Shown here: piece by piece, positions 15,698-39,819 of the stretch
How positions within the stretch are numbered: position 1 is the first letter of the stretch
Layout of the letters: every line of letters begins with the position of its first letter
Source: Pseudomonas arsenicoxydans
Lineage (GTDB): Bacteria > Pseudomonadota > Gammaproteobacteria > Pseudomonadales > Pseudomonadaceae
NCBI RefSeq assembly: GCF_900103875.1
Contig: NZ_LT629705.1
Location: forward strand, 3,295,001-3,359,000
Direction of reading: 5' to 3'
Length of the DNA stretch: 64,000 bases
Translations under genes and position numbers: made by a program
The notes under the pieces: generated by a model
Databases searched by the model: none
What the model was told of the DNA's origin: nothing
The model's input: only the letters and a program-made list of their open reading frames with translations

Positions 15698-16666
15698 CTA
15701 GTGTGATTTTAATAATGACTTGACCGCGATTCCCGCAGGTTTTGAAGTCCCGTCCGACGACAAGATCCCAAAACTTCTCTCGCGATCGTTGCCTCCAGAA
15801 TCGCTGTTCTTCCATTCGTAGATAGACGTCAGCGGTATGTTCAGTTTTTGCGTGTCGCTGATGAACTGGGTGATTCGCGAGGCTTGCCCGGTGGTACCGC
15901 CGATGGAGCTGAGCGATGGCACGCCCCATTCGCTGATGACACCCGGCAGATGAAAGTTATCGAGTATGAAGGCTTGAGCATCGCTGATTTGCGCGCTCGA
16001 CATGCCGTAGGGGTGATAGGACACCGCGCTCAGGCACTTTGGATGGTCATTGATGATTTTGTTCAGTGCGACGGTAGCCTTGGAACCCTGGACAGGTGCC
16101 TTTGCAAATCCAAAGCCGATCAGCGGGGTTGAAGTGTCGCGTTTTTGCAGCCCGCTGCACACGGCGTTCATGAATGGCGCAAACGTGACTTCGAAGTCTT
16201 GAGTCGGCCAATATTTCGGCAAGTCCGGTTCATTCCAAATTTCGATGGCGACAAGTTGGGTGCGGTATGCGTTGTCCAGGCTGATGACTGAGCGGGCGAA
16301 TGCCTCACCTGCCGTGGCGAGATCGCTGTCACTGCTGGTTGTCGTGCTGGTCAAAGGTTTGGTTGAGCGGACGGTCATCAATACCGGTAGATCAGCAGTT
16401 TTGGCAGCGGCGAAAGCTTCGCTGATCTGCTGTTGATACGACGGGGTGCCCAAGCTGTTGGTCCATACGCCAAAGCGCACGAATCCAAACCCTGAGGCTT
16501 TGATCTGTTGGGCATCGTTAGCGGTGAAATTCTGGATTTTTACCTGAACGCCTATTGTCTTGTGGTCTTTCGCCAGTGCTGCAAAAGGCTGCCCGGCGTA
16601 AGCAGGACTGGCGGCGAATAGAAAGAGCATGGAAGTTGTAATCAGTCGATAGCGCGTCAAGGTCAT
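15698..16666 (-). CDS. Secreted clan-A glycoside hydrolase (PslG/GH39-like)
   Basis: The 322-residue protein has a signal peptide (about 1-24, cleavage after AYA). The TIM-barrel hydrolase motifs are IEIWNEPDLP, with the acid/base Glu146, and GVISEWGVP, with the nucleophile Glu246. SYHPYG between them is also typical. It resembles cellulase-like/GH39 enzymes such as PslG that sit in exopolysaccharide operons and cut the polymer in the periplasm. It diverges from wzb-wzc across the region with the GTTA-N6-GTCGG repeats, so co-regulation is likely. It may trim or release polymer; the substrate is unknown. Confidence 0.75.
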   Translation of the reverse strand: MTLTRYRLITTSMLFLFAASPAYAGQPFAALAKDHKTIGVQVKIQNFTANDAQQIKASGFGFVRFGVWTNSLGTPSYQQQISEAFAAAKTADLPVLMTVRSTKPLTSTTTSSDSDLATAGEAFARSVISLDNAYRTQLVAIEIWNEPDLPKYWPTQDFEVTFAPFMNAVCSGLQKRDTSTPLIGFGFAKAPVQGSKATVALNKIINDHPKCLSAVSYHPYGMSSAQISDAQAFILDNFHLPGVISEWGVPSLSSIGGTTGQASRITQFISDTQKLNIPLTSIYEWKNSDSGGNDRERSFGILSSDGTSKPAGIAVKSLLKSH

Positions 16667-16776
16667 TGGCAGTTTTCCTGGTAATCAAGTATATCGTCCC
16701 GGTGTTAGTCGAATGAAAGTAACATCGGTCAGTCGATACAGCCATACCCTTAATCGTTTACTTAAAACACGCCATT

Positions 16777-16791
16777 GTTATTTTTTGTCGG
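16777..16791 (+). promoter_or_regulatory. GTTA-N6-GTCGG motif, copy 1 (exact)
   Basis: GTTATTTTTTGTCGG. It shares the word with copies upstream of galE and gfcA. Confidence 0.5.
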
Positions 16792-16815
16792 ATAAACAAC
16801 GACAAGAATGCTGTT

Positions 16816-16830
16816 GTTATTTTTGGTCCA
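16816..16830 (+). promoter_or_regulatory. GTTA-N6-GTCGG motif, near copy
   Basis: GTTATTTTTGGTCCA matches 13 of 15 bases of the galE copy at 27984 and is 39 bases downstream of copy 1. Confidence 0.45.
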
Positions 16831-16982
16831 GTTATTCTGGTTGGGCGTTTTTTGTGGGTCATGGTATTTAATACACTTGTAATTTCATGATGGGTCCAGC
16901 GCTGAATGCGGGACGATCTTATGGGTTCACTCAACTCCCGCTGCACATTGGCCAATTCGACACTACAACGGGAAGAGTAGCC

Positions 16983-17420
16983 TTGTTCAAAAAAATTCTT
17001 GTCGTTTGCGTCGGCAATATTTGCCGAAGTCCCACAGCCGAAATGTTGCTGCGCAATGCGCTGGAACCTTCAATTTCAGTGACCTCTGCGGGCCTCGCCG
17101 CGCGGGTGGGCGAGTCTATGGCGCCTGACGCACTTTCGGTACTGGAAGAACATGGGCGCGCCGCGCCGAACTTTAAAGCACGGCAGATAACAGCGGCCAT
17201 CGTTAATGAATCAGACCTCGTTCTGGTCATGGAAAAAGAGCATGTAAAAGGCGTGCTCGATATTGCATCACATGCCAGAGGCAAAGTGTTTCTTCTGGGG
17301 AAGTGGCAGCGTGAGCGCGAAATAAAGGATCCGTATCGTCAAGGAAAAGCTGCTTTTGTCCATGCCCATGCATTGATTGAAGAGGCTGTTTGCTCATGGG
17401 CGCAGCGCCTCGGACGTTGA
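16983..17420 (+). CDS. wzb: Wzb-type low-molecular-weight protein tyrosine phosphatase
   Basis: The protein has about 145 residues from TTG 16983. The P-loop CVGNICRS (C9-x5-R15-S) follows immediately, and the general acid is Asp in KDPYRQG. It dephosphorylates the tyrosine kinase Wzc encoded next, cycling polymer assembly. The TTG is preferred because GGGAAG stands 7 bases upstream and the family begins MFKKILVVC; an ATG at 16887 would add 32 unrelated residues. Its stop overlaps the wzc start (TGATG), so the two are coupled. Confidence 0.9.
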   Translation: MFKKILVVCVGNICRSPTAEMLLRNALEPSISVTSAGLAARVGESMAPDALSVLEEHGRAAPNFKARQITAAIVNESDLVLVMEKEHVKGVLDIASHARGKVFLLGKWQREREIKDPYRQGKAAFVHAHALIEEAVCSWAQRLGR

Positions 17421-19693
17421 TGGATGATTTTCAGATTAGCAATAATGGTAAAAGAATAGACCTTATGCAGTTACCGTCAGTAATCAGCACCCGGGATAAA
17501 GATAGAGACGAGATTGATCTTCTCGGTTTACTCGGCACATTGATTGACCACAAATGGTTAATAGGTGCTATCACCGGTGCGTTCATGGTGACCGGTGCCG
17601 CGTATTCGGTTTTATCAGCGCCCGTGTATCTGGCGAACGCGCTGGTACAGGTCGAGCCGAAAAAGAACGACATGTTGGGCTTCTCGGATATCAGCAGCAT
17701 GCTTGGCGGACAATCGCCAGCGGCTACCGAGATTGGCATCATCAAGTCCCGCGCAGTCATTGGTAAAACGGTCGATGATCTGCGCCTGGATATTGTGGTC
17801 ACGCCCAACACCTTTCCCGTAGTGGGTGGCTTTCTGGCGCGTCGTTATAAAAGCGCTCCTGATCAACCGGTGTCACCTGCACGCTTTGGGTTGAGCAGTT
17901 TTGCCTGGGGCGGTGAGCGCCTCGAGATCGAGAAGCTCAAACTGCCCGATGAGTTGTTGGGCAAGAAGCTGATGCTGATTGCCGGCGAGCAAAACCGGTT
18001 CCAGCTGTTTGATGACAACGGCGGTTTGTTGGCCAGCGGTGCCGCAGGCGTTGCTGTCGCAGAGAATGGCGTCGAGATGCTCGTAACGGGGATGGCCGCC
18101 AACCCGGGGACGAAATTCGAGGTGGTGCGCAATCCACGTATCGTCACCATTCAAAGTTACCAGGACGCCCTGGATGTCTCCGAGCAAGGTAAGGAGTCGG
18201 GCATCATCAGCCTGGCCCTGGCCAGCACCGACTACGCCCTGGCGGTGAAAATACTCAACAAGATATCGACCCTGTATGTGCAGCAGAACGTGCAACGCAC
18301 GTCTGCCGAGGCGGCCCAGAGTCTGGACTTCCTGCAGGCACAACTTCCTCAAGTCAAAGACGATCTGGTCAAAGCCAGCAACGCGCTCAACAGCTACCAG
18401 ACTCGCGGCAATACCGTGAATATCTCCCTGGAAACCAAGTCTGTCCTGGAACAGATTGTGGTGCTGGACACGCGCCTCTCGGATTTGAAGCTGCAGCAAG
18501 CCGACCTTGATCGAAAATTCACCCGCGAGCACCCGGCATACCGCGCGTTGATGGCTCAGATGGGCGATTTGAACAGCCAGCGCCGAGCACTGGAGAAGAA
18601 GGTTCAGGGGCTGCCGGCGACGCAACAAGAGTTGTTGAACCTCACCCGTGATGTCGAAGTGGCAACGCAGATCTACACCCAACTTTTGAACAAATCCCAG
18701 GAGTTGGACATCGTGCGGGCCGGTGCGGTCGGCAACGCGCGGCTCATTGATACGGCGGATGTCGACATCACCACCCCGGTCAAGCCACGTAAAATCCTTA
18801 TCGTGCTTATTGCGACTTTCCTGGGAGCGTTTGTCGGTGTTGCCCTGGTGTTGGTGCGCAAATCCCTAAGCCGAGGACTTGAAGGCCCCGAAGCCATCGA
18901 GCAACTTGGGCTGCCCGTTTACGCCTCTATTCCGTACAGCGCGTTGCAGCAGGAAGAGGACACCAAGAAACTCCGGCTGGGCGACGGTAGCCCTAACCAG
19001 GGCTTTCTATTGGCGCTGCGTAACCCCACCGATTTGTCCATCGAATCGATACGCAGCCTGCGAACCTGTTTGCATTTTGCGGGGCTGGACGCGACCAACA
19101 ATCGCATCATGATTTCCGGGCCAAGCCCTCAGGTCGGCAAGACATTTGTCTCCTCTAACCTGGCCGCTGTCATGGCTCAAAGCGGGCAGCGGGTCATCCT
19201 GATCGATGCGGATATGCGTAAAGGTCATTTGCACAAGACGTTGGCGACCCCGATCAACAATGGCTTGTCGGACCTGTTGGTCAAACGCTGCAGTCTGGAC
19301 CAGGCGATCAATAAACTTGAGATCGAAAACCTGCACTTCATCAGCCGTGGCCAAGTACCGCCTAATCCCTCGGAACTGCTGATGCATGCCAACTTCCGAG
19401 AGCTGATGGCGGAACTCAGCGAACGCTACGATGTGGTCATCGTCGACACACCACCGCTTTTGGCTGTCACCGATGCGGCCATTGTCGGACGTGAAGCGGC
19501 AATCAATCTGATCGTGACGCGTTTTGGCGTTAACCCGGCCAAAGAGATCGAGTTGACCATGCGCCGGTTTGCTCAAAACGGCATCGAGTTGAAGGGCGCC
19601 ATTTTCAATGGCGTCGAGAAACGGGCGTCCAGTTATTACGGTAATAGCAGCTACGGCTATTACAACTATGAATACGCCTCCGACAAGGCGTGA
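17420..19693 (+). CDS. wzc: Wzc-type polysaccharide co-polymerase and tyrosine autokinase
   Basis: The 757-residue protein has an N-terminal Wzz domain with TM1 (about 47-67), a long periplasmic coiled-coil part (about 300-430) and TM2 (about 458-478). The cytoplasmic BY-kinase has Walker A GPSPQVGKT (about 567), Walker A' VILIDADMRKG (about 592) and Walker B VVIVDTPP (about 672). The tail has seven tyrosines between 739 and 752. It controls Wzy chain length and couples to Wza. The start overlaps the wzb stop; in-frame codons at 17390/17396 lie inside wzb. Confidence 0.95.
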   Translation: MDDFQISNNGKRIDLMQLPSVISTRDKDRDEIDLLGLLGTLIDHKWLIGAITGAFMVTGAAYSVLSAPVYLANALVQVEPKKNDMLGFSDISSMLGGQSPAATEIGIIKSRAVIGKTVDDLRLDIVVTPNTFPVVGGFLARRYKSAPDQPVSPARFGLSSFAWGGERLEIEKLKLPDELLGKKLMLIAGEQNRFQLFDDNGGLLASGAAGVAVAENGVEMLVTGMAANPGTKFEVVRNPRIVTIQSYQDALDVSEQGKESGIISLALASTDYALAVKILNKISTLYVQQNVQRTSAEAAQSLDFLQAQLPQVKDDLVKASNALNSYQTRGNTVNISLETKSVLEQIVVLDTRLSDLKLQQADLDRKFTREHPAYRALMAQMGDLNSQRRALEKKVQGLPATQQELLNLTRDVEVATQIYTQLLNKSQELDIVRAGAVGNARLIDTADVDITTPVKPRKILIVLIATFLGAFVGVALVLVRKSLSRGLEGPEAIEQLGLPVYASIPYSALQQEEDTKKLRLGDGSPNQGFLLALRNPTDLSIESIRSLRTCLHFAGLDATNNRIMISGPSPQVGKTFVSSNLAAVMAQSGQRVILIDADMRKGHLHKTLATPINNGLSDLLVKRCSLDQAINKLEIENLHFISRGQVPPNPSELLMHANFRELMAELSERYDVVIVDTPPLLAVTDAAIVGREAAINLIVTRFGVNPAKEIELTMRRFAQNGIELKGAIFNGVEKRASSYYGNSSYGYYNYEYASDKA

Positions 19694-19796: not shown

Positions 19797-20879
19797 GTGA
19801 AAAAAATACTGCACGTGGCCGAAACGATTAAAGGCGGAGTGGCAACGGTCATTCGTACGATATCGACTCCCCCCGAGGGCGACGCTCGTCAATATGAGTT
19901 GGTGTATCTGATCCCGTTCGATCAGAAAAAAGAACTGCACGGTATTGATGAAAAAGACATCAGGACCTTCTCGAGGAATAAGCGGGATGTGATCTCCCTC
20001 CTGCGGTTTGCCTGGCAACTGATCCGGGTGATCTTCAAGGAAAAGCCTGATGTCGTGCACCTGCACAGTACATTTTCCGGTGTTATTGGCCGGTGTGTCT
20101 GTCTGCTCATGCGTCCATGGCGTGCCCCCAAGATCATCTACTGCCCGCACGCATTTTCTTTCTTGATGGAGAGCTCTCCGGTCAAACAGAAAGTGTATTC
20201 ACTGGTCGAGCGGCTTTTGCAGAAAGTCACCGACGTCATTATCTGTGTCAGCCAGTACGAAATGGATAAGGCCGCCTCGTTCGGTATCGACCGGCACCGG
20301 ATGAAGCTGATCTACAACGGTATTCATTACAGAAGCGATGAGAACAAGTCTGGCGAGAGCACGGACATTCAGCTGCTGTTCGTGGGGCGACTCGACTATC
20401 AGAAAGGCTTCGATGTCCTGCTGAAGGCGTTTGCTGAAGTCGAGCGAACGGACTTGCGGCTTACGGTTGTGGGGAGTGCGGTCAATGAAGAGTCCGTCGA
20501 GTGCCCGGCCATCGATGCCGTGGAATACCTGCCTTGGGTGACGCCTGCGGAAGTCAACGAGCTGTATAAAACAGCCGACGCCCTGATTGTTCCCAGTCGT
20601 TGGGAAGGCTTTGCCATGGTGCCGCTTGAAGGCATGGCCATGGGCGTGCCAGTGATTGCCAGTGACTGCACTTCGCTGCCTGAACTGGTGACGGACAACA
20701 TCACCGGCTACTTGTTTTCGACGGGCGATTACCAGGCGCTGGCCAACATTCTACTGAACATCAAAAAGCAAAAATTGTTCGAGCTCGGGACCGAAAGCCG
20801 CAAGAAAGTGCGCGAGCGGTTCAGTGCGACCTTGATGATTCAGCAAACCTACGACGTGTATTCCGCTCAAACTTATTAA
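19797..20879 (+). CDS. GT4-family glycosyltransferase
   Basis: The 360-residue GT-B enzyme starts at GTG 19797, with GGAGATGG 7 bases upstream. The N-terminal domain has a Gly-rich loop ETIKGGVATV, and the C-terminal domain has LFVGRLDYQKGFDVLL and the E-x7-E motif PSRWEGFAMVPLEGMAMG. It uses an NDP-sugar at the cytoplasmic face to extend the lipid-linked unit. It is the only non-initiating glycosyltransferase seen in the locus, so the repeat may hold just two sugars. With galE nearby, UDP-galactose is a reasonable donor; this is inference. Confidence 0.88.
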   Translation: MKKILHVAETIKGGVATVIRTISTPPEGDARQYELVYLIPFDQKKELHGIDEKDIRTFSRNKRDVISLLRFAWQLIRVIFKEKPDVVHLHSTFSGVIGRCVCLLMRPWRAPKIIYCPHAFSFLMESSPVKQKVYSLVERLLQKVTDVIICVSQYEMDKAASFGIDRHRMKLIYNGIHYRSDENKSGESTDIQLLFVGRLDYQKGFDVLLKAFAEVERTDLRLTVVGSAVNEESVECPAIDAVEYLPWVTPAEVNELYKTADALIVPSRWEGFAMVPLEGMAMGVPVIASDCTSLPELVTDNITGYLFSTGDYQALANILLNIKKQKLFELGTESRKKVRERFSATLMIQQTYDVYSAQTY

Positions 20880-20891: not shown

Positions 20892-22007
20892 ATGATGAAC
20901 GTAACTATTTTGCATGGCTACAGTGCGTCCAACTCGGGCGATGGCCTTCTCGTGGATTTGGCAATCGCCTTGGTGCTGCGAAATTTCGGGCCTGACACTT
21001 TAATCAACGTAGTTGCGTCGGACCCCCAATCATTTAGTTATCTTCCCTATAAACGGTATGACGCACCTGTCATGGCGGCTAAAGGATTTGGCCGGGTCAA
21101 GGAAGCGGTGTTTCTCAACCAGTCTTACACCGCGCTGGCTGATCTGTTGAGCACCTGTGATTTGATTGTAGGGGTCGGCGGTGGGTACATGCGCTCCAAA
21201 AGCGCCTTTGAACATATCAAGCTGAAATTGGGGCATGCCAAGCAACTCGAAACGGCCATCTTGAGCAAGGTGCCGTCGGTTTACCTGCCGCAAAGTATCG
21301 GTCCGTTCCATGGCCAGAGCAGCAAGATCGTCGAGCACTACGCCAGTGCCGATGCAGTGTTTGTCCGGGACAACCGTTCTTCAGCCATTTTCGCGGCCCA
21401 TGAAAACGTGTATCGCGCGCCGGATCTGGCGGTCCAGGCGTTGGCCAAGAAGATCCTGCTGCAACCCAAGTTCACCCGCTGTGCAGCTTCGCCGGCCGTA
21501 GTTTGCGTGGTGTTACGCAAACCGCCGCAATGGAGCAAAGACAAGAAAGTCGGCTACGTGGCCAATCTGAAACTTCTTCTGCAGCGATTGCGGGCCAAGA
21601 GCAAAGTGGTGTGCGCGGTACAAAGCGCCGTGCGCGGCAACGATGACGGAGCTTTTTATCGTGAACTCGGTATTACCGAGGACCTGCTGCCGTTGAAGGC
21701 GACGCTGGCCAAGTATCAGCCCGACCTGGTCATTTCCGTCAGACTGCACGGCGCCATCGAGTCGCTGCTGGCCGGCGTACCGGCGTTCCATATCAGTTAT
21801 GAGCGCAAAGGCTTTGGCGCCTATGAAGACATGGGCGTGGAAGACTGGGTGATCAATGGTGCAGACATCAACGTCGACACCATCATCGACACTGTCTATG
21901 CGCCGAATGCTCTGAGCCGATTCGGTAAAAGACTCACGGACACCTGTAAGGAAATCGAAGCCAAAACGCTGCAGATGGACACTATCATCAAAGGGATTGT
22001 TCGATGA
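20892..22007 (+). CDS. Polysaccharide pyruvyl transferase family protein
   Basis: The 371-residue protein has the PS_pyruv_trans pattern: HGYSASNSGDGLL at the N-terminus, LIVGVGGGYMR in the middle, VYLPQSIGPF, then VISVRLHGAIESLLAGVPAFHISYERKG. Such enzymes transfer pyruvate from PEP as a ketal onto a sugar, giving an acidic polymer. No signal or membrane segment is seen, so it is cytosolic and acts on lipid-linked repeats. Its stop overlaps the wzx start (ATGA). Confidence 0.88.
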   Translation: MMNVTILHGYSASNSGDGLLVDLAIALVLRNFGPDTLINVVASDPQSFSYLPYKRYDAPVMAAKGFGRVKEAVFLNQSYTALADLLSTCDLIVGVGGGYMRSKSAFEHIKLKLGHAKQLETAILSKVPSVYLPQSIGPFHGQSSKIVEHYASADAVFVRDNRSSAIFAAHENVYRAPDLAVQALAKKILLQPKFTRCAASPAVVCVVLRKPPQWSKDKKVGYVANLKLLLQRLRAKSKVVCAVQSAVRGNDDGAFYRELGITEDLLPLKATLAKYQPDLVISVRLHGAIESLLAGVPAFHISYERKGFGAYEDMGVEDWVINGADINVDTIIDTVYAPNALSRFGKRLTDTCKEIEAKTLQMDTIIKGIVR

Positions 22008-23224
22008 TATTCCGGCTGTTGCTGCGGGGCGGCGCACTCGGCGCCAAGTTTTTGCTGGTGTTGGCCATTACTCATTATCTGGGCTATGACGCATTGGGCT
22101 TTTACGGCGTCGTGGTGGCGGCCTCACTGATAGCCTCGAAGTTTTACAGCGTCGGATTCAGTTCCGAGATCAACCGGCTGATCAGTGTTGGCGGCAGTTC
22201 GCGAGGTGTCGTCGATAAGGTGCTGATCCTGTACCTGGCTGTGGGTTTGTTGTTGTCGGTGGTAACGGTCACGCTTTACTCATTGATCGGTGATGTCGAG
22301 GCGAGTGCTGCGTTGATCGCTTGCGTGACGCTGTTGTTGCTCAGTGAGCATCTGTCCTTTGAAATCAATTCGTTTGTCTTTTCCGCACAGAAAGCCAACT
22401 GGGGCGCGTTGCTGTTCTTCATAAAAACCGGGCTCTGGGCTCTCATTGCCGTGGGCGGACTCATGACGGGCGTCGTGTCTTCCATCGCCAGTGTTCTGTG
22501 GTTGTGGGTGGTCACCAACGTGCTGGTGATCCTGGCCGGCTACTTCATTGTGGTTAACGTTCACCGGGAGCGGGAGGTCAGTGCCGTCACCACGGTGTCC
22601 GTCTGGAAAGCCGGGCTGCCTTTTTATCTGGGCGGCGGCTTGATTGCGTTGAGCCAATACGCCGAGCGCTTTCTTATTCTGGACATCGAGCCCTACGCGA
22701 GCCTTGGCAAGTACGTGTATTCCTGGTCCGCCGCCAATACCCTGCAAGCGCTGTCCTACGCGGTTGTTGCTGTCGTCGGCATTCCCGTGCTCGCCAAGCG
22801 CTACAAGAATAATCCACAGGCCCTCACGGTTCGGCAGTTGTTCCTGAATCAATGGGTGCTGCGATCCTTGGTGGTTTCCGGCGCCGTGGCGGTGGCGATC
22901 TACGCCTTTTTCAACATCCTGCTGGATTATGTCGATGCAGCTGTTCCGCGGCCGGACAACAGGATTTTAGCGGTGCTGATTTTTTCGTTTGCGCTTCGTG
23001 CCATTGGCGACATCGTTTGGGGAGGCCTTATCGCTTCGAAGAACAGTCGAGTGTCATTGGCCAGTGCGGCGATCTGCCTGGTGATTTCGCTGCCCGTCAG
23101 CTACGTGCTGATCAAGCACTATTCAATCTATGGCGCGGCGTGGGGCAATGTCTTTTCGATTACGGTGCAACTGGTCGTTATTGCGTTGCTGACTCAGTTT
23201 GCCCGGACGAAGGGGACTGTGTAA
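22004..23224 (+). CDS. wzx: Wzx-like flippase (MOP/polysaccharide transporter)
   Basis: The 406-residue protein is very hydrophobic, with about 12 predicted membrane helices spread evenly and few charged residues. The start has the typical RLLLRGGALGAKFLLVLAITHYLGYDALGFYG pattern seen in two overlapping pieces in MOP flippases. It would flip undecaprenyl-PP-linked repeats to the periplasm. It overlaps the pyruvyltransferase by ATGA and the next gene by TAATG, so it is fully coupled. It could be confused with a polymerase, but regular TM spacing and the N-terminus favour Wzx. Confidence 0.82.
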   Translation: MIFRLLLRGGALGAKFLLVLAITHYLGYDALGFYGVVVAASLIASKFYSVGFSSEINRLISVGGSSRGVVDKVLILYLAVGLLLSVVTVTLYSLIGDVEASAALIACVTLLLLSEHLSFEINSFVFSAQKANWGALLFFIKTGLWALIAVGGLMTGVVSSIASVLWLWVVTNVLVILAGYFIVVNVHREREVSAVTTVSVWKAGLPFYLGGGLIALSQYAERFLILDIEPYASLGKYVYSWSAANTLQALSYAVVAVVGIPVLAKRYKNNPQALTVRQLFLNQWVLRSLVVSGAVAVAIYAFFNILLDYVDAAVPRPDNRILAVLIFSFALRAIGDIVWGGLIASKNSRVSLASAAICLVISLPVSYVLIKHYSIYGAAWGNVFSITVQLVVIALLTQFARTKGTV

Positions 23225-24327: not shown

Positions 24328-24339
24328 GGTTTGTGCTGT

Positions 24340-25377: not shown

Positions 25378-25414
25378 GCAGCGTTCAGCGGGTGATTTGA
25401 TAAGGGATGAGCCA

Positions 25415-31408: not shown

Positions 31409-32172
31409 AGCTTTCAAAGGTGTTATGCACGTGTCTGTTGTGGGTCGCGGGAGGCACGAGTCAGGCGGCGGTCAGCGTCGATGGCGACGTCGGCCATCCG
31501 GGGCCGGTCGACCTGCAACCCGGTGGCCGCGCGCTGGATGTGATGCGCTTGGCGCGGCCCAATCCTGAAGGCTACTGGCTGGCGGCGGCCTGGCTGCGAC
31601 GGTCGCTGCTCGAAGAGCAGACCCGGCTCAAAGCCGGCGTCTTGTTCGATTTGAAAGTGCTGCAGCGCACAGCGTTGCTCTTTGATCGCCCCAGCCGCGC
31701 GGCACTGGCGCTGCAGATGTACGAGCACGTCAGTCGCTTGCCGGTGACCGGGCGTCAGGTGGCCGTGCTGGACCCGGTCGCGGTCGAGGTTGGGTTCGCG
31801 CGCAACTTTCGCCTCGATGACGGCGACAGCCTGATCTACCCGATGCGTTCGAATGTGGTTGAAGTGTTGGGCGCGGTCGCCGAACCGTGCGAGCTCGCGT
31901 ATCGCCCGATGCAAGAGGCTCGTGATTACTTGCAAGCGTGTTCTCCGCTGAGCGGCGACGCCGAAGCCGATTACCTGTGGATCATTCAGCCCGATGGCAT
32001 CACCCGACGGGTCGGCATCGCGCCGTGGAATCGCGAAAGCGGTCAGGTGCCTGCCGCGGGCAGCAAGATCCTGGTCCCCGTCAAAAACGATGATCTTAAT
32101 CCGCCTATACCTGAACTGAATCAGCAGTTGGCCGAATTTCTTGCCACGCAACTGGCTGAGGTGGTTCCTTGA
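31405..32172 (+). CDS. gfcC: GfcC/YjbG family periplasmic protein
   Basis: The 255-residue protein starts at TTG 31405, overlapping the gfcB stop. A signal peptide (about 1-22, SQAA) is followed by two ubiquitin-like beta-grasp regions (VSVDGDVGHPGPVDLQPG, and near 150 DSLIYPMRSNVVEVLGAV). The C-terminal amphipathic helix (ELNQQLAEFLATQLAEV) resembles the Wza helix, as described for E. coli GfcC. It ends in another TTGA overlap with gfcD. Confidence 0.85.
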   Translation: MKLSKVLCTCLLWVAGGTSQAAVSVDGDVGHPGPVDLQPGGRALDVMRLARPNPEGYWLAAAWLRRSLLEEQTRLKAGVLFDLKVLQRTALLFDRPSRAALALQMYEHVSRLPVTGRQVAVLDPVAVEVGFARNFRLDDGDSLIYPMRSNVVEVLGAVAEPCELAYRPMQEARDYLQACSPLSGDAEADYLWIIQPDGITRRVGIAPWNRESGQVPAAGSKILVPVKNDDLNPPIPELNQQLAEFLATQLAEVVP

Positions 32173-34247
32173 ATTTACGTTTTGCAGCAGTGTTGTTATT
32201 GCCGTGTGGTCTGGCTCACGCAGAGCCGCGATTGACTCAGAGTGATTTCGGCGGCGTGGGCTTGATGCAGACGCCGACCGCCCGAATGGCCCCGGCCGGC
32301 GAGTTGAGTGTGAACGCCAGTCGGACCAGCCCCTACAGTCGCTACAGCGTTTCATTGCAGCCGTTTGAATGGCTGGAAGGCTCGTTTCGCTACACCGCCA
32401 TCACCAACCGCAGGTACGGTCCCGAATCGTTGAGCGGCGACCAGAGCTATAAAGACAAGGCCGTGGACCTCAAGGTGCGCCTGTGGCAAGAAACCCACTG
32501 GGCACCTGATGTGGCCCTGGGTTTTCGCGACGTGGGCGGCACAGGTCTGTTCTCCAGCGAGTTCCTGGTCGCCAACAAACGCTATGACGACTTCGATTTC
32601 AGCGCGGGCATTGCCTGGGGCTATATCGGCAATCGAGGCGATTTCGAAAACCCGTTGGGTTGGGCGGATGATCGCTTCAAGACCCGGCCGGACGGCGAGG
32701 GCACCGGTGACGTCAACACCAATGCCTATTTCCGTGGACGTCCCTCGTTGTTTGGCGGCGTGACCTACCAGACTCCCTGGGAGCCGCTCAGCCTGAAACT
32801 CGAGTACGAAGGCAACGACTATAAAAACGAACCGAAGGACAACGTGATCAAGCAAGACTCGCCCATCAACCTGGGCGCGGTGTTCAAGCTGACCGATTCG
32901 GTTGATCTGAGCGCTGGCTGGGAACGCGGCAATACTGCGATGTTCGGCATCACCTTGCACACCAACTTCGTCAGCCGCAAGGCGCCGGCCAAGACTTACG
33001 ATCCGCCGGCGGAGCGTCTGCCGGCACACGCACCCAACACGGCGCCGGACCAGGTCAATTGGGCCAACGTGTCGCAACGATTGCAGAAAAACGCCGGCTA
33101 CAACGTCGAGCGCATTACCCAGCGCGGCTCAGAGTTGTTTGTGTATGGCGAGCAGACGAATTATTTCTATGCGGCAAAAGCGGTCGGCCGCGCCAGCCGG
33201 ATTCTGGACAACAGCGTCAACGACGACATCGACTGGTTCACCCTGGTGAACAAGCGCTACGACATGCCGCTGGAGGAAACCAGCGTGCCGCGCGAGACCT
33301 TTCGCGAAGTGGTCAACAATGAGGAGACGCTACAAACCCTGCACCGCAGCACCGAGGTCAATGCGGCGATGCCCCATACCGAGACCACGCTCTATACCGC
33401 AGCGCGTGATCCGTTCAACTACGGTGTCGGGCTGGGCTACAAACAGAACATCGGTGGCCCCGATGGTTTGCTCTATCAATTGAGCGTCGATGCGGACGCC
33501 GAGTATCGCTTCACGCGCAACACTTGGTGGAGCGGCATGCTCAGCGCCAATCTGGCGAACAACTACGACCACTTCACCTACGACGCGCCAAGTGGCTTGC
33601 CCCGAGTGCGCACCGACCTGCGCAAGTACCTGACGACCTCTGACGTCACCATGCCGACGTTCCAGCTCAGCCATGCCGAGCAGCTCGATAAAGACCTGTT
33701 TGGCATGGTCTACGGCGGTTATTTGGAATCGATGTTCGCCGGCGTTGGCGGTGAGGTGCTGTTTCGTCCGACGGGCCAGCGCTGGTCGGTGGGCGCGGAC
33801 CTGAACTACGTGCGTCAGCGCGAGTTCAATCAGGGCTTTGGCCTGCGGGATTACTCGACCGTGACAGGCCACATCACCGGCTACACAGATTTGCCTTTTG
33901 ATACCCAGGCAGCCGTCAGCGTTGGACGTTACCTGGCTCGGGATTGGGGCACCACGATCGACCTGTCGCGGGAGTTTGCCAATGGCGTGCGATTCGGTGC
34001 CTGGGCCACGTTGACCACTGCAACCACAGCAGAATATGGCGAAGGCAGCTTCGACAAAGGCATCTACCTTTCGATTCCTTTTGACGAACTCATGAGCATG
34101 TCGACGATGCGTCGAGCGAATATCGTCTGGTCACCCCTGACCCGGGACGGTGGCGCGCGGCTCAATCGCAGCTACTATCTACACTCCATGACCGATAGCC
34201 GTGACAGCGACATGTTCTACCGCAACTTCGACAAGATCACTGAGTGA
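32169..34247 (+). CDS. gfcD: YjbH/GfcD family outer-membrane beta-barrel protein
   Basis: The 692-residue protein starts at TTG 32169 and has a signal peptide (AHA, about 18). The family opening RLTQSDFGGVGLMQTPTARM and many amphipathic strands follow; YxxF-rich strands predict a large outer-membrane barrel, possibly two linked barrels. It is believed to help polysaccharide secretion together with GfcB and GfcC. It closes the operon and is followed by a hairpin at 34258-34282. Confidence 0.88.
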   Translation: MNLRFAAVLLLPCGLAHAEPRLTQSDFGGVGLMQTPTARMAPAGELSVNASRTSPYSRYSVSLQPFEWLEGSFRYTAITNRRYGPESLSGDQSYKDKAVDLKVRLWQETHWAPDVALGFRDVGGTGLFSSEFLVANKRYDDFDFSAGIAWGYIGNRGDFENPLGWADDRFKTRPDGEGTGDVNTNAYFRGRPSLFGGVTYQTPWEPLSLKLEYEGNDYKNEPKDNVIKQDSPINLGAVFKLTDSVDLSAGWERGNTAMFGITLHTNFVSRKAPAKTYDPPAERLPAHAPNTAPDQVNWANVSQRLQKNAGYNVERITQRGSELFVYGEQTNYFYAAKAVGRASRILDNSVNDDIDWFTLVNKRYDMPLEETSVPRETFREVVNNEETLQTLHRSTEVNAAMPHTETTLYTAARDPFNYGVGLGYKQNIGGPDGLLYQLSVDADAEYRFTRNTWWSGMLSANLANNYDHFTYDAPSGLPRVRTDLRKYLTTSDVTMPTFQLSHAEQLDKDLFGMVYGGYLESMFAGVGGEVLFRPTGQRWSVGADLNYVRQREFNQGFGLRDYSTVTGHITGYTDLPFDTQAAVSVGRYLARDWGTTIDLSREFANGVRFGAWATLTTATTAEYGEGSFDKGIYLSIPFDELMSMSTMRRANIVWSPLTRDGGARLNRSYYLHSMTDSRDSDMFYRNFDKITE

Positions 34248-34515: not shown

Positions 34516-35910
34516 TCAATAGATGTCTTTGGAGAGCAGGGTGAACGGTGTCTTCACCAGGATCTTCAGGTCCAGCCACAACGACCAGTTGTTGATGTAC
34601 TTGAGGTCGATTTCCACGCGTTTCTGCATCTTGTCGAGGGTGTCGGTCTCGCCGCGGCATCCGTTGATCTGAGCCAGGCCGGTAATCCCCGGTTTGATTC
34701 GGTGACGGGCCATGTAGGCGAGAATTTTTCCGGAGTAGTAATCGTTGTGCGCAACCGCGTGCGGACGTGGACCCACCAGGGCCATATGGCCTTGCAGCAC
34801 GTTGAACAGTTGCGGCAACTCATCCAGCGAGGTACGGCGGATAAACCTTCCGACCGCGGTGATCCGCGAGTCGTTTCGACTGGCTTGTTTGACTTCATGG
34901 TCGTCGTGCACGCGCATCGAGCGGAACTTCCAGACCTGGATCACCTTGCCATTCCATCCGTGACGGTCCTGTTTGAAGAACACCGGCCCTGGAGAGTTGA
35001 GTTTCACGGCCAGGGCAATCAGCAACAGCAGGGGGCTGAGCAGGACAATGGCCAACAGCGCCACGCTCTTTTCCAACAGGCTTTTACTCAGTGCGGCGGT
35101 GGGCTGGCTGGTCAGTGGGCTTTCGTTCAAGTAGATCGCCGGCAAACCGTCCACGACCCGTACCGAGTGATTGAGCAGCGTCAGGCTGTTCAAATCCGGC
35201 ACCCAGACCACATCGACATTGGCCCCCAGCAGATCGATGTACATGGCTTCGATTTTTGCCGCTTCGCTCAGGGGTAGTGTTATGTACAAACGACGGATGT
35301 CGTGGGCTTTTATCAACTCCAGCAGTTGTTCCTGAGGACCGACGATACGCGGTGCCCCCAAGCCCAGCGGAAGCGTGGTGTCCGTGCTGACCAAACCCAC
35401 CAGCGGAAAGTGCTCAAGGCTGCGCAGCTTTCTGGCGAGCCCCAATGCCAACTCGCCTGTGCCGACGATCAGGGTTTTATGCTCGCTCTGAAGTGACCGT
35501 TGATAGTATTGCGAGAATCCATGCAATGGCACGTACAGCAGCGCTTGCCCGAGGTAACCGACTGCCGCCCATACCAGGATGATCTCGCGTGAAAACAGCT
35601 CATCAGCCTTGCAGATAAACGCCACGCAGGCCAATGCCGCGAGTGTCATTGACCAGCCCATCAGCAAACGTCCCAATCCCGCCAGGTAGTTGTCCTTCTT
35701 GGCATAGACGCCACACCATGTATAAGCGGGTACCGAGGCCAATACCGTCAGAATGGCGCAGACTCGATAATAAAACTCCAGCGTTCCGGTCTGGTAATAA
35801 ACCAATAAAAACAACAGGGCCGTTACATAGCCCTGACCCAATGCCCACTGTCCCCAGAAGGTCAGTCCTTTGAGGTGGGTATTTCGATTGATACGAAGAT
35901 TGTTAACCAT
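34516..35910 (-). CDS. wcaJ: WcaJ-type undecaprenyl-phosphate glucose-1-phosphate transferase
   Basis: The 464-residue PHPT protein has four N-terminal membrane segments (about 15-120), a CoA-binding-like domain (about 140-250), a fifth hydrophobic segment (about 275-305) and the sugar transferase domain. That domain has SPGPVFFKQDRHG, WKFRSMR, SLDELPQLFNVLQGHMALVGPRP and KPGITGLAQINGCRGET in adjacent stretches. It attaches Glc-1-P to undecaprenyl phosphate, the first step of repeat synthesis. ATG 35910 has GGGGAT 6 bases upstream; the frame extends to 36021 without support. It faces the gfc operon. Confidence 0.92.
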   Translation of the reverse strand: MVNNLRINRNTHLKGLTFWGQWALGQGYVTALLFLLVYYQTGTLEFYYRVCAILTVLASVPAYTWCGVYAKKDNYLAGLGRLLMGWSMTLAALACVAFICKADELFSREIILVWAAVGYLGQALLYVPLHGFSQYYQRSLQSEHKTLIVGTGELALGLARKLRSLEHFPLVGLVSTDTTLPLGLGAPRIVGPQEQLLELIKAHDIRRLYITLPLSEAAKIEAMYIDLLGANVDVVWVPDLNSLTLLNHSVRVVDGLPAIYLNESPLTSQPTAALSKSLLEKSVALLAIVLLSPLLLLIALAVKLNSPGPVFFKQDRHGWNGKVIQVWKFRSMRVHDDHEVKQASRNDSRITAVGRFIRRTSLDELPQLFNVLQGHMALVGPRPHAVAHNDYYSGKILAYMARHRIKPGITGLAQINGCRGETDTLDKMQKRVEIDLKYINNWSLWLDLKILVKTPFTLLSKDIY

Positions 35911-36260
35911 GCGATATCCCCAAAATACGTCCATTTGCGCGTCGACAGACAACAGCCAAAGTTGATAAATCAGCGTTATTGTTTTTATAGGATGGCGCCG
36001 CGTTGACGATCGAAACGCCACTGTGCGGCGCGCTCGTCAGTGAATAGATTAATTGATCGATCTAAAAGCAGTCTGACGACTTCTAACGGAGTGTTAGTTG
36101 CTGTTTCTATTGCGATTTATGAACGGTGTTAGAAATGGTCGATAATTAAAGAGGGGGCGCAAGGCCGGTCGGTATGAAATAAATCAGGGGCATGAAGGGG
36201 GTAGAGTCATGAAGTGCTTTCTTATTTTTGTAGTGCACTATCAAAAGGATTGTTAGTCGC
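35911..36260. other. Intergenic region wcaJ / regulator
   Basis: A 350-base AT-rich stretch. It holds the wcaJ promoter, several GTTAG words, an inverted TTCTAAC...GTTAGAA pair (about 36079-36134) and a divergent motif copy, GTTAGAAATGGTCGA (36128-36142). A 15-codon frame at 36209 is not convincing as a gene. Confidence 0.5.
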
Positions 36261-36938
36261 TCAGATGTTATTTTTCCCTCGGGTGATTTTCTGTATCAGG
36301 CAATAGCCACGGTTTCGAACTGCGCGGAAAAGGCGCTCGCCATTACTGGCATTTTTAAATTTTTCCTGTAATCGACTGAGGCACATTTCGAGACCGCGAT
36401 AGTGCTCGGGTTCTCTGCCAATGCTGCGAATCAGATCATCTTTGCTGACCACTCGATCATCATGGTGGAGCATTTTCTCGACCAGCGTCGCCTCAAGACC
36501 GGTCAAGACAATCTCGACATCATCTTTGATCAGCGCGCCATTACCGTTGCTCAGTTGCCAGGCGTCCGAGCACGGATAGTGAGCTTTCACATTCATTGAG
36601 ACGGACTCGTCCCGAGTGTCACCTGTCGGTGAAGTGATGTTATTAAAAGATGTGTCGGATTGCGCGGCTAACCACTCGGACTCAAATGTCGAGAGTATGC
36701 GCTGAGTGTCATGTTTGATAACAGGCGGGACATTTATGTCCAGATGAGGGGAGATAAACTCCATGAGTTTGGGCGTTGAAGAGGGAAGGGTAACACCTTC
36801 GACAAACATTTTTGCCTGTGACGTGCCGAATGAGTTATATCGCTCGCTCGAGAGTAAGGCTTCAAGCTCAAGTTGTAATGCCGGGCTGTGGGTAACGACG
36901 ACAAAGTATTTTCTGGGGAGGGGTGTACTGCTTTCCAT
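36261..36938 (-). CDS. Winged-helix (OmpR-type) regulator, third gene of triad
   Basis: The 225-residue protein has a C-terminal Trans_reg_C domain (about 140-218: VLTGLEATLVEKMLHHDDRVVSKDDLIRSIG, then LSRLQEKFK and RAVRNRGYCLIQK, split for brevity). The N-terminal 110 residues begin like a receiver (KYFVVVTHSPALQLELEALL) but show no phospho-acceptor Asp or Lys, so control is probably not by phosphorylation. It is distantly paralogous to the regulator at 37747-38487. It follows the EAL-like gene by 28 bases, in one operon. Confidence 0.72.
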   Translation of the reverse strand: MESSTPLPRKYFVVVTHSPALQLELEALLSSERYNSFGTSQAKMFVEGVTLPSSTPKLMEFISPHLDINVPPVIKHDTQRILSTFESEWLAAQSDTSFNNITSPTGDTRDESVSMNVKAHYPCSDAWQLSNGNGALIKDDVEIVLTGLEATLVEKMLHHDDRVVSKDDLIRSIGREPEHYRGLEMCLSRLQEKFKNASNGERLFRAVRNRGYCLIQKITRGKNNI

Positions 36939-36966
36939 GTCTCTCTCCTGAAGGGTACGCTCGATT

Positions 36967-37716
36967 TCAGTTTAATAGGATGTCGGCAGGGGAGTAATGG
37001 CTCCCTTGAAAGTATTCAAACGGCAATGCGCGAGCCAGTATATGGCTAGCAGCTTGCTCCACTCTGTCCGCAATAAATGCAACTTTTGTGGTATGCGTCA
37101 GCATCGTCATGCGTTCGTGGAGTCGATTGAAAAGTTCTGGGTTGCCAGTGAGTTTAAGACTCAAGTCTAGGGTTGAAAGCGGGATCTTTATATAGTCGAA
37201 TAAATTCAGGGTTGTAAACATCTCGATACTTTCATCGTCGATGTTGTAATTGTCGAAGGCGATTTCAATGCCGTGATCTTTCAACAGGTACAGGTTGTTG
37301 AGGATTTTCTTTTTTTCGACGAAGCTGACCGCCGAGAGGGGTAGCTCATTGAGTGCGATCACCAGCGTCTGGCCAAGATTTCCCAGCGCATCGCCGCACT
37401 GGATCAGCTCTTCAGCGAGGGCGGAGCTGGCGAGATCCGACTGCCTGACGCAGACGAATCGACGGCTCAGGTACTTGCTTTCGCTTGAGGTATTGCGATC
37501 TTTAAGCGAGCAGGCAATCTGCCGGGTTTGCGTGAGTACTTCACTGTAAAGTCCGCTCATCGGGTTCACCCGTGCAGGAGTGGGCTGAGCCTGAAGGTCG
37601 TCAAACTGTATTCTGATCTCGCTGCCAAAAGGGCAGTCATCGCGAGTGAGGATCAATTGTCGAGACAAATAATGACTCGCAGGATAGACGTAAGACGCGC
37701 TCCCCGGTGCGTTCAT
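36967..37716 (-). CDS. Degenerate EAL-domain protein
   Basis: The 249-residue protein has an EAL-like second half: GIEIAFDNYNIDDESIEMFTTLNLFDYIKIP stands where active enzymes have GVxIAlDDFGTGYSSLxxLxxLPxDxIKID. FIADRVEQ replaces IAEGVE, and EYFQGSHYS replaces the QGYxfs end. The EAL signature and the DD pair are missing, so c-di-GMP hydrolysis is unlikely and a binding or protein-contact role (as in YdiV or BvgR) is likelier. GGGAG precedes ATG 37716. It lies between two winged-helix regulators with gaps of 28 and 30 bases. Confidence 0.68.
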   Translation of the reverse strand: MNAPGSASYVYPASHYLSRQLILTRDDCPFGSEIRIQFDDLQAQPTPARVNPMSGLYSEVLTQTRQIACSLKDRNTSSESKYLSRRFVCVRQSDLASSALAEELIQCGDALGNLGQTLVIALNELPLSAVSFVEKKKILNNLYLLKDHGIEIAFDNYNIDDESIEMFTTLNLFDYIKIPLSTLDLSLKLTGNPELFNRLHERMTMLTHTTKVAFIADRVEQAASHILARALPFEYFQGSHYSPADILLN

Positions 37717-37746
37717 AATGCAATAACTCCCTTGCTTGTTAACTCG

Positions 37747-38487
37747 TCAAGCGGTCGCGATCAGACCCCTGATTAGACGATATCCATGACCACGAATACT
37801 TTGAATGGCGTTGGTGCCGTACATGCCTTTTATTTTGCCGCGAAGGCGGCTTATCGATTTTTCCAAGGCTCTTGGGTCATAAAAATTTATATTTAGCCCC
37901 ATGATTCTGGCGATTTCGTCGTGGCTCAATATTTGGTTTCTGGTTTCAGAAAATGCTTCAAGAATTTTCATTTCGGGAAACGAAACGTCCAGCTTTTTAT
38001 AATCTCCAATCAGGCACATGCGCGTCGGATCGAGAAGCAAGCTGTGCTTCTTCTGCCACTCTGCACTGTCGAAAAAATCAGCAAGTACGTCGCAGTTTTC
38101 ACTCGGTAAAGTCGTGAATTTAACGCAGTGGTCGGCGCCGGCAAGATAATATTTCATCTTGTTGTAAGTGCCTTTTCCTGTGATCGCTACAAATATGATA
38201 CTGGCCTGGTTGTGGGCGCGAATACTTTCTACCAGCGCAAGGCTTTCAATAAACACCTGGGGGCTGTCAATCACAATGAAGATTGCGCGATACGAATGAG
38301 TATTCCTGTTTTTTCTAAATGGGTTGTTGTAGCACATTGTATCGACGGGTATATCACGGGCAATGTGGCTGGCAACTAAAGTTCTAAAATCCTCTGCTAT
38401 TGAATGGGTCCGCCCCATGGTGAGAATGCCTGGCACCTCCTTCACGTGGTTGTGGCGGGTCGTCGTTATTTTCCCTGTAAGCATCAT
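37747..38487 (-). CDS. Winged-helix (OmpR-type) regulator, first gene of triad
   Basis: The 246-residue protein has a receiver-like middle part (about 65-130: RAIFIVIDSPQ, FVAITGKGT, AGADHCVKF) that keeps a candidate Asp and Lys but not the rest of the pocket. A C-terminal winged helix follows (about 165-240: FPEMKILEAFSE, EIARIMG, SRLRGKIKG, IRGHGYRLIRG). It is the promoter-proximal gene of the three-gene - strand operon beside the exopolysaccharide genes, and the best candidate for their local regulator. The target is unknown. Confidence 0.72.
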   Translation of the reverse strand: MMLTGKITTTRHNHVKEVPGILTMGRTHSIAEDFRTLVASHIARDIPVDTMCYNNPFRKNRNTHSYRAIFIVIDSPQVFIESLALVESIRAHNQASIIFVAITGKGTYNKMKYYLAGADHCVKFTTLPSENCDVLADFFDSAEWQKKHSLLLDPTRMCLIGDYKKLDVSFPEMKILEAFSETRNQILSHDEIARIMGLNINFYDPRALEKSISRLRGKIKGMYGTNAIQSIRGHGYRLIRGLIATA

Positions 38488-38985
38488 GCTTTGACTCGGC
38501 TGGGTGCTGACATTTGGATGTTAAAGCACCAATTCTCATTTGTGACTGACAATTGGTAACATTTCACGGAATTTTCCAGCGGTCATCACATATTTTTTAA
38601 CATTGCAGGGGGCTACGACGTGATTCTTCGCGGTTCCGGCATGCAGCACGTGGATGGCAAAAGAGTGTCATTGTGCCATCTTTTTTCGTGATCTCTCGCT
38701 TTTCCAGAACAATGAACGTTACACGCGGCTCACACATTCAGTTACATACCGATTTCCAAGGACGTTAATAATGGCCACGGCAGGTCTAGTTGGAAGAGAG
38801 GTTTTGGCGTTTCTTCGGCTCCCCTATAACTCGTGTTTGTTGTTATATAACATCCCTCTTGATAAGGGGTGGCTGGACATTTAATAACATTAAGTTTTAA
38901 TACGTGGCTGGATGCGTTTTAATTTCTCGTTGGCGACACATCTTAAGCAGATCAGTTGATGTGCTTTTGTCAGTGAGAGGAACTA
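38488..38985. other. Long AT-rich intergenic region before uppP
   Basis: A 498-base divergent region between the regulator triad and uppP. ACCAATT and AATTGGT words at about 38528-38556 form an inverted repeat. A 37-codon frame from ATG 38771 to the stop at 38884 has AAGGACG upstream and could be a small gene, but I do not recognise it. Otherwise no feature is seen. Confidence 0.45.
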
Positions 38986-39819
38986 ATGGATTTTTGGACG
39001 ACAGTGGCGGTATTGATATTGGGTGTGGTCGAAGGGCTGACGGAGTTTTTGCCCATATCAAGTACAGGGCACCAGATTATTGTCGCGGACTTACTCGACT
39101 TCGGCGGTGAACGTGCGATGGCGTTCAACATCATTATTCAACTGGGCGCCATTTTGGCGGTCGTCTGGGAGTTTCGGCGCAAGATCTTCGAGATTATCAA
39201 AGGCTTGCCAACGCAACATAACGCGCAACGTTTTACTTTCAACGTATTGATCGGCTTTATACCGGCTGTTGTCTTGGGCGTATTGTTCGCCGACAAGATT
39301 CATGAATATTTGTTTAACCCAATTACCGTCGCGGTGGCTTTGGTTGTAGGCGGTATCGTCATGTTGTGGGCAGAACGGCGGGAGCACGTGGTGTATGTCG
39401 ACCATGTTGACGACATGCGCTGGACTGACGCGCTTAAAGTCGGCTTCGCCCAATGCCTGGCGATGATACCGGGCACCTCGCGTTCCGGCTCGACCATTAT
39501 CGGTGGGCTGCTGTTCGGCCTGTCACGCAAGGCCGCCACCGAATTCTCATTCTTCCTGGCCATGCCAACCATGGTCGGTGCGGCGATCTACTCAGGCTAC
39601 AAGTACCGGGATCTATTCCAGGCCGCTGACCTGCCAGTCTTTGCCCTGGGTTTCGTGACCGCGTTCTTTTTCGCCATGATCGCCGTGCGCGGCTTGCTCA
39701 AGTTCATCGCCAGCCACAGTTACGCCGCATTCGCCTGGTATCGGATCGTCTTTGGGTTGTTGATTCTGGCTACATGGCTGTTCGGTTGGGTCAACTGGAC
39801 TGAAGCTGCAGCGCTCTGA
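38986..39819 (+). CDS. uppP: UppP/BacA undecaprenyl-diphosphatase
   Basis: The 277-residue membrane protein has the two family signatures: [17 protein letters not shown] (about 13-29) and [12 protein letters not shown] (about 163-174). The catalytic Glu, Ser, Arg and His are present. It recycles undecaprenyl-PP released by Wzy polymerisation and peptidoglycan synthesis. GAGGAA precedes the ATG. Its place at the edge of the locus fits a supply role; whether it is locus-specific or the housekeeping copy cannot be told here. Confidence 0.95.

Follow-up and report, generated by a model that had tools for sequence, protein, structure and literature searches.

The analysed window is a 64,000-nucleotide stretch of the Pseudomonas arsenicoxydans genome. 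Judged by its genes, the block between tal and dusA (positions 15698-39819) holds the full gene set of a Wzx/Wzy exopolysaccharide locus, bounded by a PslG-like hydrolase (15698) and uppP (39819). All the genes named in the original prediction were found in the block by Pfam and NCBIfam profile searches, with Wzx and Wzy inferred. At the left edge, on the minus strand, lies the gene for the secreted PslG-like glycoside hydrolase (15698-16666; PslG in the PDB, E 3.9e-8; Pfam Cellulase below the cut-off), which was present in 67/67 of the Pseudomonas loci compared. On the plus strand follow wzb (16887-17420; low molecular weight tyrosine phosphatase, PF01451, with a possible alternative start near 16983), the tyrosine autokinase/copolymerase gene wzc (17390-19693; PF02706, PF13807 and TIGR01007, likely ATG near 17420), the single non-initiating glycosyltransferase, GT4 (19797-20879; PF00534, PF13439), and a polysaccharide pyruvyltransferase (20892-22007; PF04230) with Burkholderiales relatives among the matches listed (120 of 687). 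Two ORFs without a Pfam match at E 1e-3 come next: the putative Wzx flippase (22004-23224), assigned from 10 hydrophobic segments, gene order and 33-36% identity to a Burkholderia homologue, and the putative Wzy polymerase (23221-24327), assigned from hydropathy, position and 27-28% identity to ORFs in Enterobacterales EPS loci. An acyltransferase (24331-25377; PF01757, no match in the NCBIfam search) and an SGNH/GDSL protein (25397-26560; PF13472) end this run. On the minus strand, a stand-alone phosphohexomutase C-terminal-domain ORF (26564-26929), whose match to the CpsG model covers residues 364-454 and scores well under the cut-off, adjoins galU (26984-27838; TIGR01099, 394 bits against a cut-off of 327). 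This ORF was found in 65 of the 67 loci, without an internal stop, and in all four of the tested loci with swapped polymer genes described below.

The plus-strand gene galE (28060-29151; TIGR01179, 460 against a cut-off of 262, likely start near 28117) is followed on the same strand by an 81-residue gfcA/yjbE-like small secreted ORF (29287-29532), wza (29619-30728; PF02563, PF22461, PF18412), gfcB/yjbF (30743-31408; PF11102), gfcC/yjbG (31405-32172; PF06251) and gfcD/yjbH (32169-34247; PF06082). The gfcA-like ORF, assigned from its translation by size and composition only, gave no match in the NCBIfam search and had a counterpart in 65 loci and in 5/5 swapped loci. The minus strand then carries wcaJ for an undecaprenyl-phosphate glucose phosphotransferase (34516-36021; TIGR03023, 441 against a cut-off of 411), whose start is probably internal, the alignments of relatives beginning at residue 23 or later. 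Beyond it on this strand are two winged-helix regulators, reg2 (36261-36938; PF00486, alignment A2) and reg1 (37747-38487; PF00486), on either side of an EAL-like protein (36967-37716) that matched PF00563 at positions 87-235 only and is presumed inactive, as the first third of the domain is missing. The plus-strand gene uppP/bacA (38986-39819; PF02673) closes the block. The gfcA-like ORF, gfcB, gfcC, gfcD, the hydrolase, the phosphohexomutase domain, uppP and the reg1/EAL-like/reg2 triplet are additions to the genes originally listed. The group 4 capsule export genes of E. coli are gfcABCDE-etp-etk, and homologues of all seven types (gfcA-like, gfcB, gfcC, gfcD, wza, wzb and wzc) were found in the locus. 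However, the gene order differs, and here the export set is paired with an EPS-type WcaJ initiator.

GT4 was detected in 28 of 199 genomes of the genus (E 1e-60), which agrees with the accessory status predicted for the locus. The proposed comparison of tal-dusA regions across Pseudomonas was made in the 89 of 199 searched genomes with tal at an identity of at least 88%, and it bore out the predicted site: the GT4 block lies between tal and dusA in some close genomes, while the two genes are adjacent in others. The two genes were adjacent (less than 1.8 kb) in 56/89 genomes, none of which had GT4, and 23.9-26.4 kb apart in 23/89, all with GT4. They were about 4 kb apart in two genomes, 31.8 kb apart without GT4 in one (G088), and on separate contigs in seven, five of which had GT4. 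Among the relatives of the locus (the best 80 of 99 were kept), the order and strands of all mapped genes were identical in the 67 named Pseudomonas loci. The block extends to galU-galE-wza in 65 of these, L024 and L029 stopping earlier, and tal adjoins it in 66; in L024, tal was not matched within 10 kb upstream. The largest gap from the hydrolase to wza across the mapped loci was 998 bases, and therefore there is hardly room for an extra glycosyltransferase in this interval.

The function of the locus is probably largely known already, through the mucoid polymer cluster of P. fluorescens Pf0-1. In published work, Pfl01_3834 (deleted with galE primers) is needed for the RsmE-repressed mucoid polymer (PMC4748119), transposons in the EPS cluster abolish this polymer (PMC4748119, PMC9578434), and the terms applied to it are "glucose-based" and "glucose-rich" (PMC4748119, PMC9578434). 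The Pf0-1 orthologue of reg1 is Pfl01_3827 (61% identical). The near relative G084 carries the same locus. Counting its genes from reg1, and leaving out gfcA and the remnant of the EAL-like gene, puts galE in eighth place, in agreement with the Pf0-1 numbering from 3827 to 3834. Unlike in the source locus, the EAL-like gene of this relative is down to a 47-residue match. The probable likeness to the Pf0-1 cluster is drawn from the reg1 orthologue, the G084 locus and the published reports.

From its gene content, the product of the locus is probably a simple two-sugar, pyruvate-bearing polymer. GalU and GalE would provide UDP-Glc and UDP-Gal, WcaJ would form Und-PP-Glc, and the single GT4 would attach one hexose, most likely Gal, although the library matches of GT4 do not predict its donor specificity. 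The repeat unit would be pyruvylated and acylated before Wzx flips it and Wzy polymerises it. Export would proceed via Wzc-Wza with GfcABCD, the PslG-like hydrolase may trim the polymer, and UppP would recycle the carrier. The predicted end product is an acidic galactoglucan with a disaccharide repeat. The original reasoning from one glycosyltransferase to a disaccharide gained from the conservation of the single GT in 67 loci and from a colinear one-GT cluster in Burkholderia. The term "glucose-based" for the Pf0-1 polymer agrees imperfectly with Glc:Gal 1:1. A glucose-rich or longer repeat, in which GT4 adds Glc or works repeatedly, or unlinked glycosyltransferases finish the unit and Gal is minor, would account for that term. 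Since the source genome holds 18 PF00534 and 16 PF00535 regions, one of which is the locus GT4, unlinked enzymes may contribute. However, galE lies inside the locus in 65/65 loci reaching that far, Pf0-1 mucoidy depends on the gene removed with galE primers (PMC4748119), and Burkholderia has a colinear set with one GT; we consider the glucose-rich or longer repeat rather unlikely. No published structure for the polymer of this locus was found in the literature searched.

The Burkholderia cluster (B. ubonensis pRF23, B. stagnalis) is of the pyruvylated-EPS type and has a single annotated GT. Its initiator, wza, wzb, wzc, GT, pyruvyltransferase and Wzx are colinear with those of the locus, and its initiator passes TIGR03023 (glucose-type) like WcaJ. 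Because this colinear cluster is also one-GT and glucose-first, it supports a decorated disaccharide. The identities are, however, 30-47%, galE, galU and gfc are not annotated beside the cluster, and the locus Wzy and acyltransferase had no tblastn match in it. Enterobacterales loci with a 41-45% identical GT4 were also considered; the three examined (L083, L088 and L089) carry other ORFs, and L083 and L088 further GT4-like proteins, so a structure by analogy is unavailable from them. Klebsiella and Pantoea plasmid loci were set aside as analogues, further GTs being present. The Pap polymer of F113 was likewise rejected as an identity for the product, as a counterpart of the UDP-glucose/GDP-mannose dehydrogenase PapA (PMC7716237) is absent between tal and dusA.

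Marginalan has Glc:Gal 1:1 with pyruvate and succinate, and is similar in structure to EPS II. The locus might make marginalan itself, a Glc-Gal(pyruvate) disaccharide with succinate, and both the gene set and the presence of an acyltransferase fit that structure. We nevertheless regard this identity as unlikely: P. marginalis was absent from the 67 named loci (one genome per species, short-pattern scan), and genes for marginalan were not found in the literature searched, where the one paper naming the polymer gives none. In the EPS II of S. meliloti, acetylated Glc and pyruvylated Gal form a disaccharide (PMC5748678), which resembles the pyruvylated, acylated one predicted here. The original suggestion of a kinship with rhizobial EPS II did not gain support, because the pyruvyltransferase and acyltransferase matched no Sinorhizobium plasmid at E 1e-5 in a collection containing such plasmids.

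A short box, TGTTA-N5-KGTCV, recurs in the intergenic regions of the locus, where 8 of its 21 genome-wide matches fall within 24.9 kb. By pattern match, two boxes 39 bases apart lie in the wzb promoter region (16776-16829, plus strand; a box here in 64/67 loci), and single plus-strand boxes lie in the galE promoter region (27953-27967; 63/65 loci), before gfcA-wza (29205-29219; 22/65 loci), between reg2 and wcaJ (36127-36141) and upstream of a 135-residue ORF at 15275-15682 (15197-15211). On the minus strand, one box is in the reg1 promoter region (38547-38561) and a second between reg1 and uppP (38875-38889). Across the 67 loci, 153 of 156 boxes were outside mapped genes. The pattern was picked by eye, tuned on this locus and fixed after longer and looser versions, both uninformative: the longer one had 4 matches, a number reached by 10 of 100 shuffles, and the looser one (two mismatches) had 36 against 34 expected. 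No mention of the box was found in the literature searched.

We propose TGTTA-N5-KGTCV as the putative operator of a polymer-independent capsule switch. In this model reg1/reg2 would drive transcription via the boxes in their own, wzb, galE and gfcA-wza promoters, with Rsm repression on top as published for Pf0-1. Alternatively, some other factor may bind at the box, or it may be a promoter element that is AT-rich, as would suit its selection by eye, its AT-rich N5 and the one exact copy each in two of the swapped loci (G183, and 20 kb of G059). This is quite improbable in our judgement. Four genomes without a reg1 match showed 12-15 scattered copies, and in two further gaps of the mapped loci a box was present in 0/67 and 0/65. 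The N5 was conserved at 0.97 and 0.91 against 0.70-0.82 in the flanks, and the box recurs before reg1, wza and wzb in the swapped loci G165 and G171. The winged-helix domains were the best-conserved parts of reg1 and reg2 (reg1 alignment A1 contained 12 proteins, with G165, G002, G005 and G067 left out). A candidate Rsm GGA motif at the reg1 start was dropped, because in the three relatives closest to Pf0-1 it is replaced by GGT; the reg1 leader comparison covered 14 of 16 sources. The gene set, its conservation, the site and the boxes are the parts of our best explanation read from the DNA itself.

Regulators, WcaJ, GfcABCD and Wza/Wzb/Wzc form a frame that is also seen enclosing other sets of polymer genes, in one case at the same site. 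The genomes with such a swapped locus are G088, G183, G171 and G165, and G059 has part of the frame; in G132 and G037, reg1, reg2 and wcaJ were present and gfc genes were not found after wcaJ. In P. fluorescens SBW25, the published locus for CAP, a colanic acid-like polymer (pflu3655-3678), starts with the regulators pflu3655-3657, which activate capsule genes, followed by wcaJ, with wzb last (PMC4357382, PMC6519391). CAP holds Fuc, GlcA and GalA, and the customary UDP-Gal genes are reported missing in SBW25 (PMC4357382). By printed gene order only, a regulator triplet adjoining wcaJ and wzb at the far end are shared with our locus. A CAP-type locus would be expected to carry precursor genes for fucose, GlcA and GalA and several GTs, but the block has one GT4 and no UGD or GDP-sugar genes.

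Our best explanation, held with moderate confidence, is an accessory, switchable mucoid-capsule locus that would make an acidic disaccharide-repeat galactoglucan under reg1/reg2 and the boxes, in a frame common to loci for other polymers. With a chance only slightly better than even, this is part of a Pseudomonas K-locus-like system of one frame with TGTTA-N5-KGTC operators and swappable polymer modules, in which the SBW25 capsule and Pf0-1 mucoidy come from the same switch acting on distinct polymers, and this locus carries the minimal module, for a decorated disaccharide. No account of polymer-gene exchange in this frame was found in the literature searched. If true, it would bring together two systems used in experimental evolution, SBW25 with its bistable capsule and Pf0-1 with its RsmE-selected mucoidy. 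The analysis offers a structural prediction for a polymer already employed in social-evolution work, and its proposal is that a single operator and a single pair of regulators underlie capsule switching in different Pseudomonas lineages. An exchange of polymer genes beneath a fixed switch would bear on phage and host recognition, and also on the formulation of biocontrol strains.

The original prediction of an exopolysaccharide locus between tal and dusA was right, and all of the genes it listed were found by ORF calls and Pfam and NCBIfam scans. The block encodes a single initiator, WcaJ, which scored above the TIGR03023 cut-off (NCBIfam), one non-initiating glycosyltransferase (GT4), a pyruvyltransferase, an acyltransferase, an SGNH protein, Wzb, Wzc and Wza, while GalU and GalE each scored above the equivalog cut-off. 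Two membrane proteins were taken as the predicted Wzx and Wzy; the Pfam scan gave no match for either. The block also holds genes beyond that list: gfcB, gfcC and gfcD (profile scan of the window), a gfcA-like ORF of 81 aa, a secreted PslG-like hydrolase, the winged-helix regulators reg1 and reg2, and an EAL-like regulator. A further ORF of 121 aa (window 26564-26929, -) resembles only the C-terminal domain of phosphomannomutase. It had no internal stop in 65 loci, was also present in all four of the capsule loci tested that carry other polymer genes, and is a conserved stand-alone domain. Just past tal lies an IS3-like transposase pair (window 12762-13987, +), with an HTH_Tnp_1 match below cut-off and an rve integrase core. 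Another EPS locus lies elsewhere in the genome: a second WcaJ-type initiator (G000:C1:5049996-5056022), 55% identical to the first, in the neighbourhood of two GT4 regions and one GT2 region.

Comparison of tal-dusA regions across Pseudomonas showed that the block is accessory. Among the 89 genomes whose tal is ≥88% identical, the two genes were adjacent in 56, none with the GT4, and separated by 23.9-26.4 kb in 23, all with it. The spacing was about 4 kb in two genomes and 31.8 kb without GT4 in one (G088); the region was split over contigs in seven, five of which carry the GT4. Overall, 28 of 199 genus genomes have the GT4. In a scan of named genomes, the best 80 of 99 relatives were kept, and the order and strand of mapped genes were constant in all 67 Pseudomonas loci among them: tal, hydrolase, wzb, wzc, GT4, pyruvyltransferase, wzx, wzy, acyltransferase, SGNH, galU, galE, wza. 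Two loci (L024 and L029) stop short of galU, and no tal match was found upstream of L024. All gaps from hydrolase to wza were ≤998 bases in the 67 loci, and therefore no further glycosyltransferase gene is hidden there. A close relative of the locus (L016, GT4 92%) is carried by P. mucoides, and pyruvyltransferase relatives of 89-90% (P0123, P0126) by P. mucidolens; both names hint at slimy growth.

A disaccharide repeat, as originally proposed, is plausible, and the polymer could be marginalan. Pyruvyltransferase relatives outside Pseudomonas with an organism name were mostly from Burkholderiales, at 41-50% identity (among 120 of 687 listed). A partial gene table of plasmid pRF23 from B. ubonensis lists, in order, glucose-type initiator (479 bits on TIGR03023), wza, wzb, wzc, the single annotated glycosyltransferase, pyruvyltransferase, Wzx-like protein, hypothetical protein and acyltransferase; a B. 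stagnalis replicon has the same core order (tblastn). pRF23 (L118) is typed as a conjugative plasmid. For a disaccharide, the strongest sequence argument is that two genera share this colinear, glucose-first set with one glycosyltransferase. One might guess that the Burkholderia cluster makes the B. cepacia EPS with the unit ->3)-bGal-(1->3)-4,6Pyr-aGal-(1-> (cited in PMC6801904), but this unit, as cited, has no Glc and would not fit a glucose initiator.

The P. fluorescens Pf0-1 polymer argues partly against a 1:1 galactoglucan, since it is described as glucose-based or glucose-rich (PMC4748119; PMC9578434). The same papers report that mutation of rsmE makes Pf0-1 mucoid, that three transposon insertions abolishing mucoidy map to a single EPS cluster, and that mucoidy is also lost when Pfl01_3834 is deleted (primers named galE). 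The Pf0-1 counterpart of reg1, Pfl01_3827, is 61% identical to it, within the 55-82% range of other same-type loci. The same locus occurs in genome G084, where reg1 and Pfl01_3827 share 95% identity. The EAL gene of G084 has shrunk to a match of 47 residues. With this remnant and gfcA left out of the count, galE comes eighth from reg1, which fits the 3827-to-3834 numbering. Hence, as judged by the reg1 match and this gene order, the literature appears already to assign this locus type a mucoid EPS function controlled by RsmE.

With an E-value threshold of 1e-15, 48 of 199 genomes have reg1: all 28 GT4-bearing genomes and 20 without GT4. Of the latter, 18 have a wcaJ relative (64-86%) within about 3 kb. 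We examined such swapped loci across their whole length in G088, G183, G171 and G165, and in part in G059. All five retain the regulators, wcaJ, gfcD-gfcC-gfcB-wza and a gfcA-like ORF, and the first four also wzc and wzb; in G165, reg1 contains an in-frame TAG. Following wcaJ, the export frame was missing from G132 and G037. In G005, otherwise same-type, reg1 is split into two fragments lying apart, and one of them contains a stop (G005:C1:4763898-4766062).

The polymer genes in the middle vary. In G088 they encode ManC, a UGD-type dehydrogenase, an epimerase, Wzx and a pyruvyltransferase, together with two GT4 and a DUF1800/DUF1501 pair (L099:7038-9847). G165 has RmlA-, RmlD- and GDP-mannose-dehydratase-like proteins, ManC, at least two glycosyltransferases, a pyruvyltransferase, a GH5-type hydrolase, a Wzy_C protein and an acyltransferase. 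The G088 locus occupies the tal-dusA site, as in the window. Compared with the window, its dusA, uppP, wcaJ and gfcD are 87-94% identical and its regulators 69-78%. Its gfcB, wza, wzb and wzc are 59%, 73%, 60% and 58% identical to those of the window, versus 73%, 85%, 78% and 79% for same-type G084, and gfcC is alike in both (69 and 70%). Such a pattern fits an exchange through recombination that begins at about gfcB and runs inward.

Aligning the reg1 leaders revealed a conserved block, which reads AATGTTACCAATTGTCA in nine loci at the same site and AATGTTAAAATTTGTCA in four swapped ones. Exact matches to TGTTA-N5-KGTCV number 21 across the 6.5 Mb genome; eight of these fall in the 24.9 kb block, and all eight are intergenic; simulated 64 kb sequences gave a mean of 0.37 and a maximum of 2 (60 runs). 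Of 156 exact boxes across the 67 named loci, 153 lie outside mapped genes, which make up 67% of bases. The box was found at the promoters of wzb (64/67), galE (63/65) and gfcA-wza (22/65), and in neither control gap (wzc-GT4, 0/67; SGNH-galU, 0/65). The free N5 positions are conserved at 0.97 and 0.91, versus 0.70-0.82 in 50-base flanks. Since the pattern was tuned on the window's own locus, independent support comes from swapped loci, control gaps and control genomes. Boxes precede reg1, gfcA-wza and wzb in G165 (4/17 genome-wide) and G171 (3/21), and G183 and G059 have only one box each. Same-type genomes have 7/21 (G049), 4/15 (G100) and 5/20 (G036) in the block, and in four genomes where reg1 had no match the copies, 15, 15, 14 and 12 in number, are scattered. 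Across types, reg1 and reg2 show higher conservation in their winged-helix regions than at the N-termini. We infer from these sequence patterns that the box is a candidate operator bound by the regulators. A copy of the reg1-promoter box (TGTTAAAATTTGTCA) at G171:C1:6380077-6380091, distant from the capsule locus, possibly marks a further regulon member.

The SBW25 capsule locus is printed in the order regulators (pflu3655-3657), wcaJ (pflu3658), to wzb (pflu3678), and its regulators are proposed to activate their own transcription through positive feedback (PMC4357382; PMC6519391). By this printed order, the SBW25 locus would share the frame. Noteworthy here are a frame holding exchangeable polymer genes and a common box, which would tie the SBW25 capsule system to that of Pf0-1.
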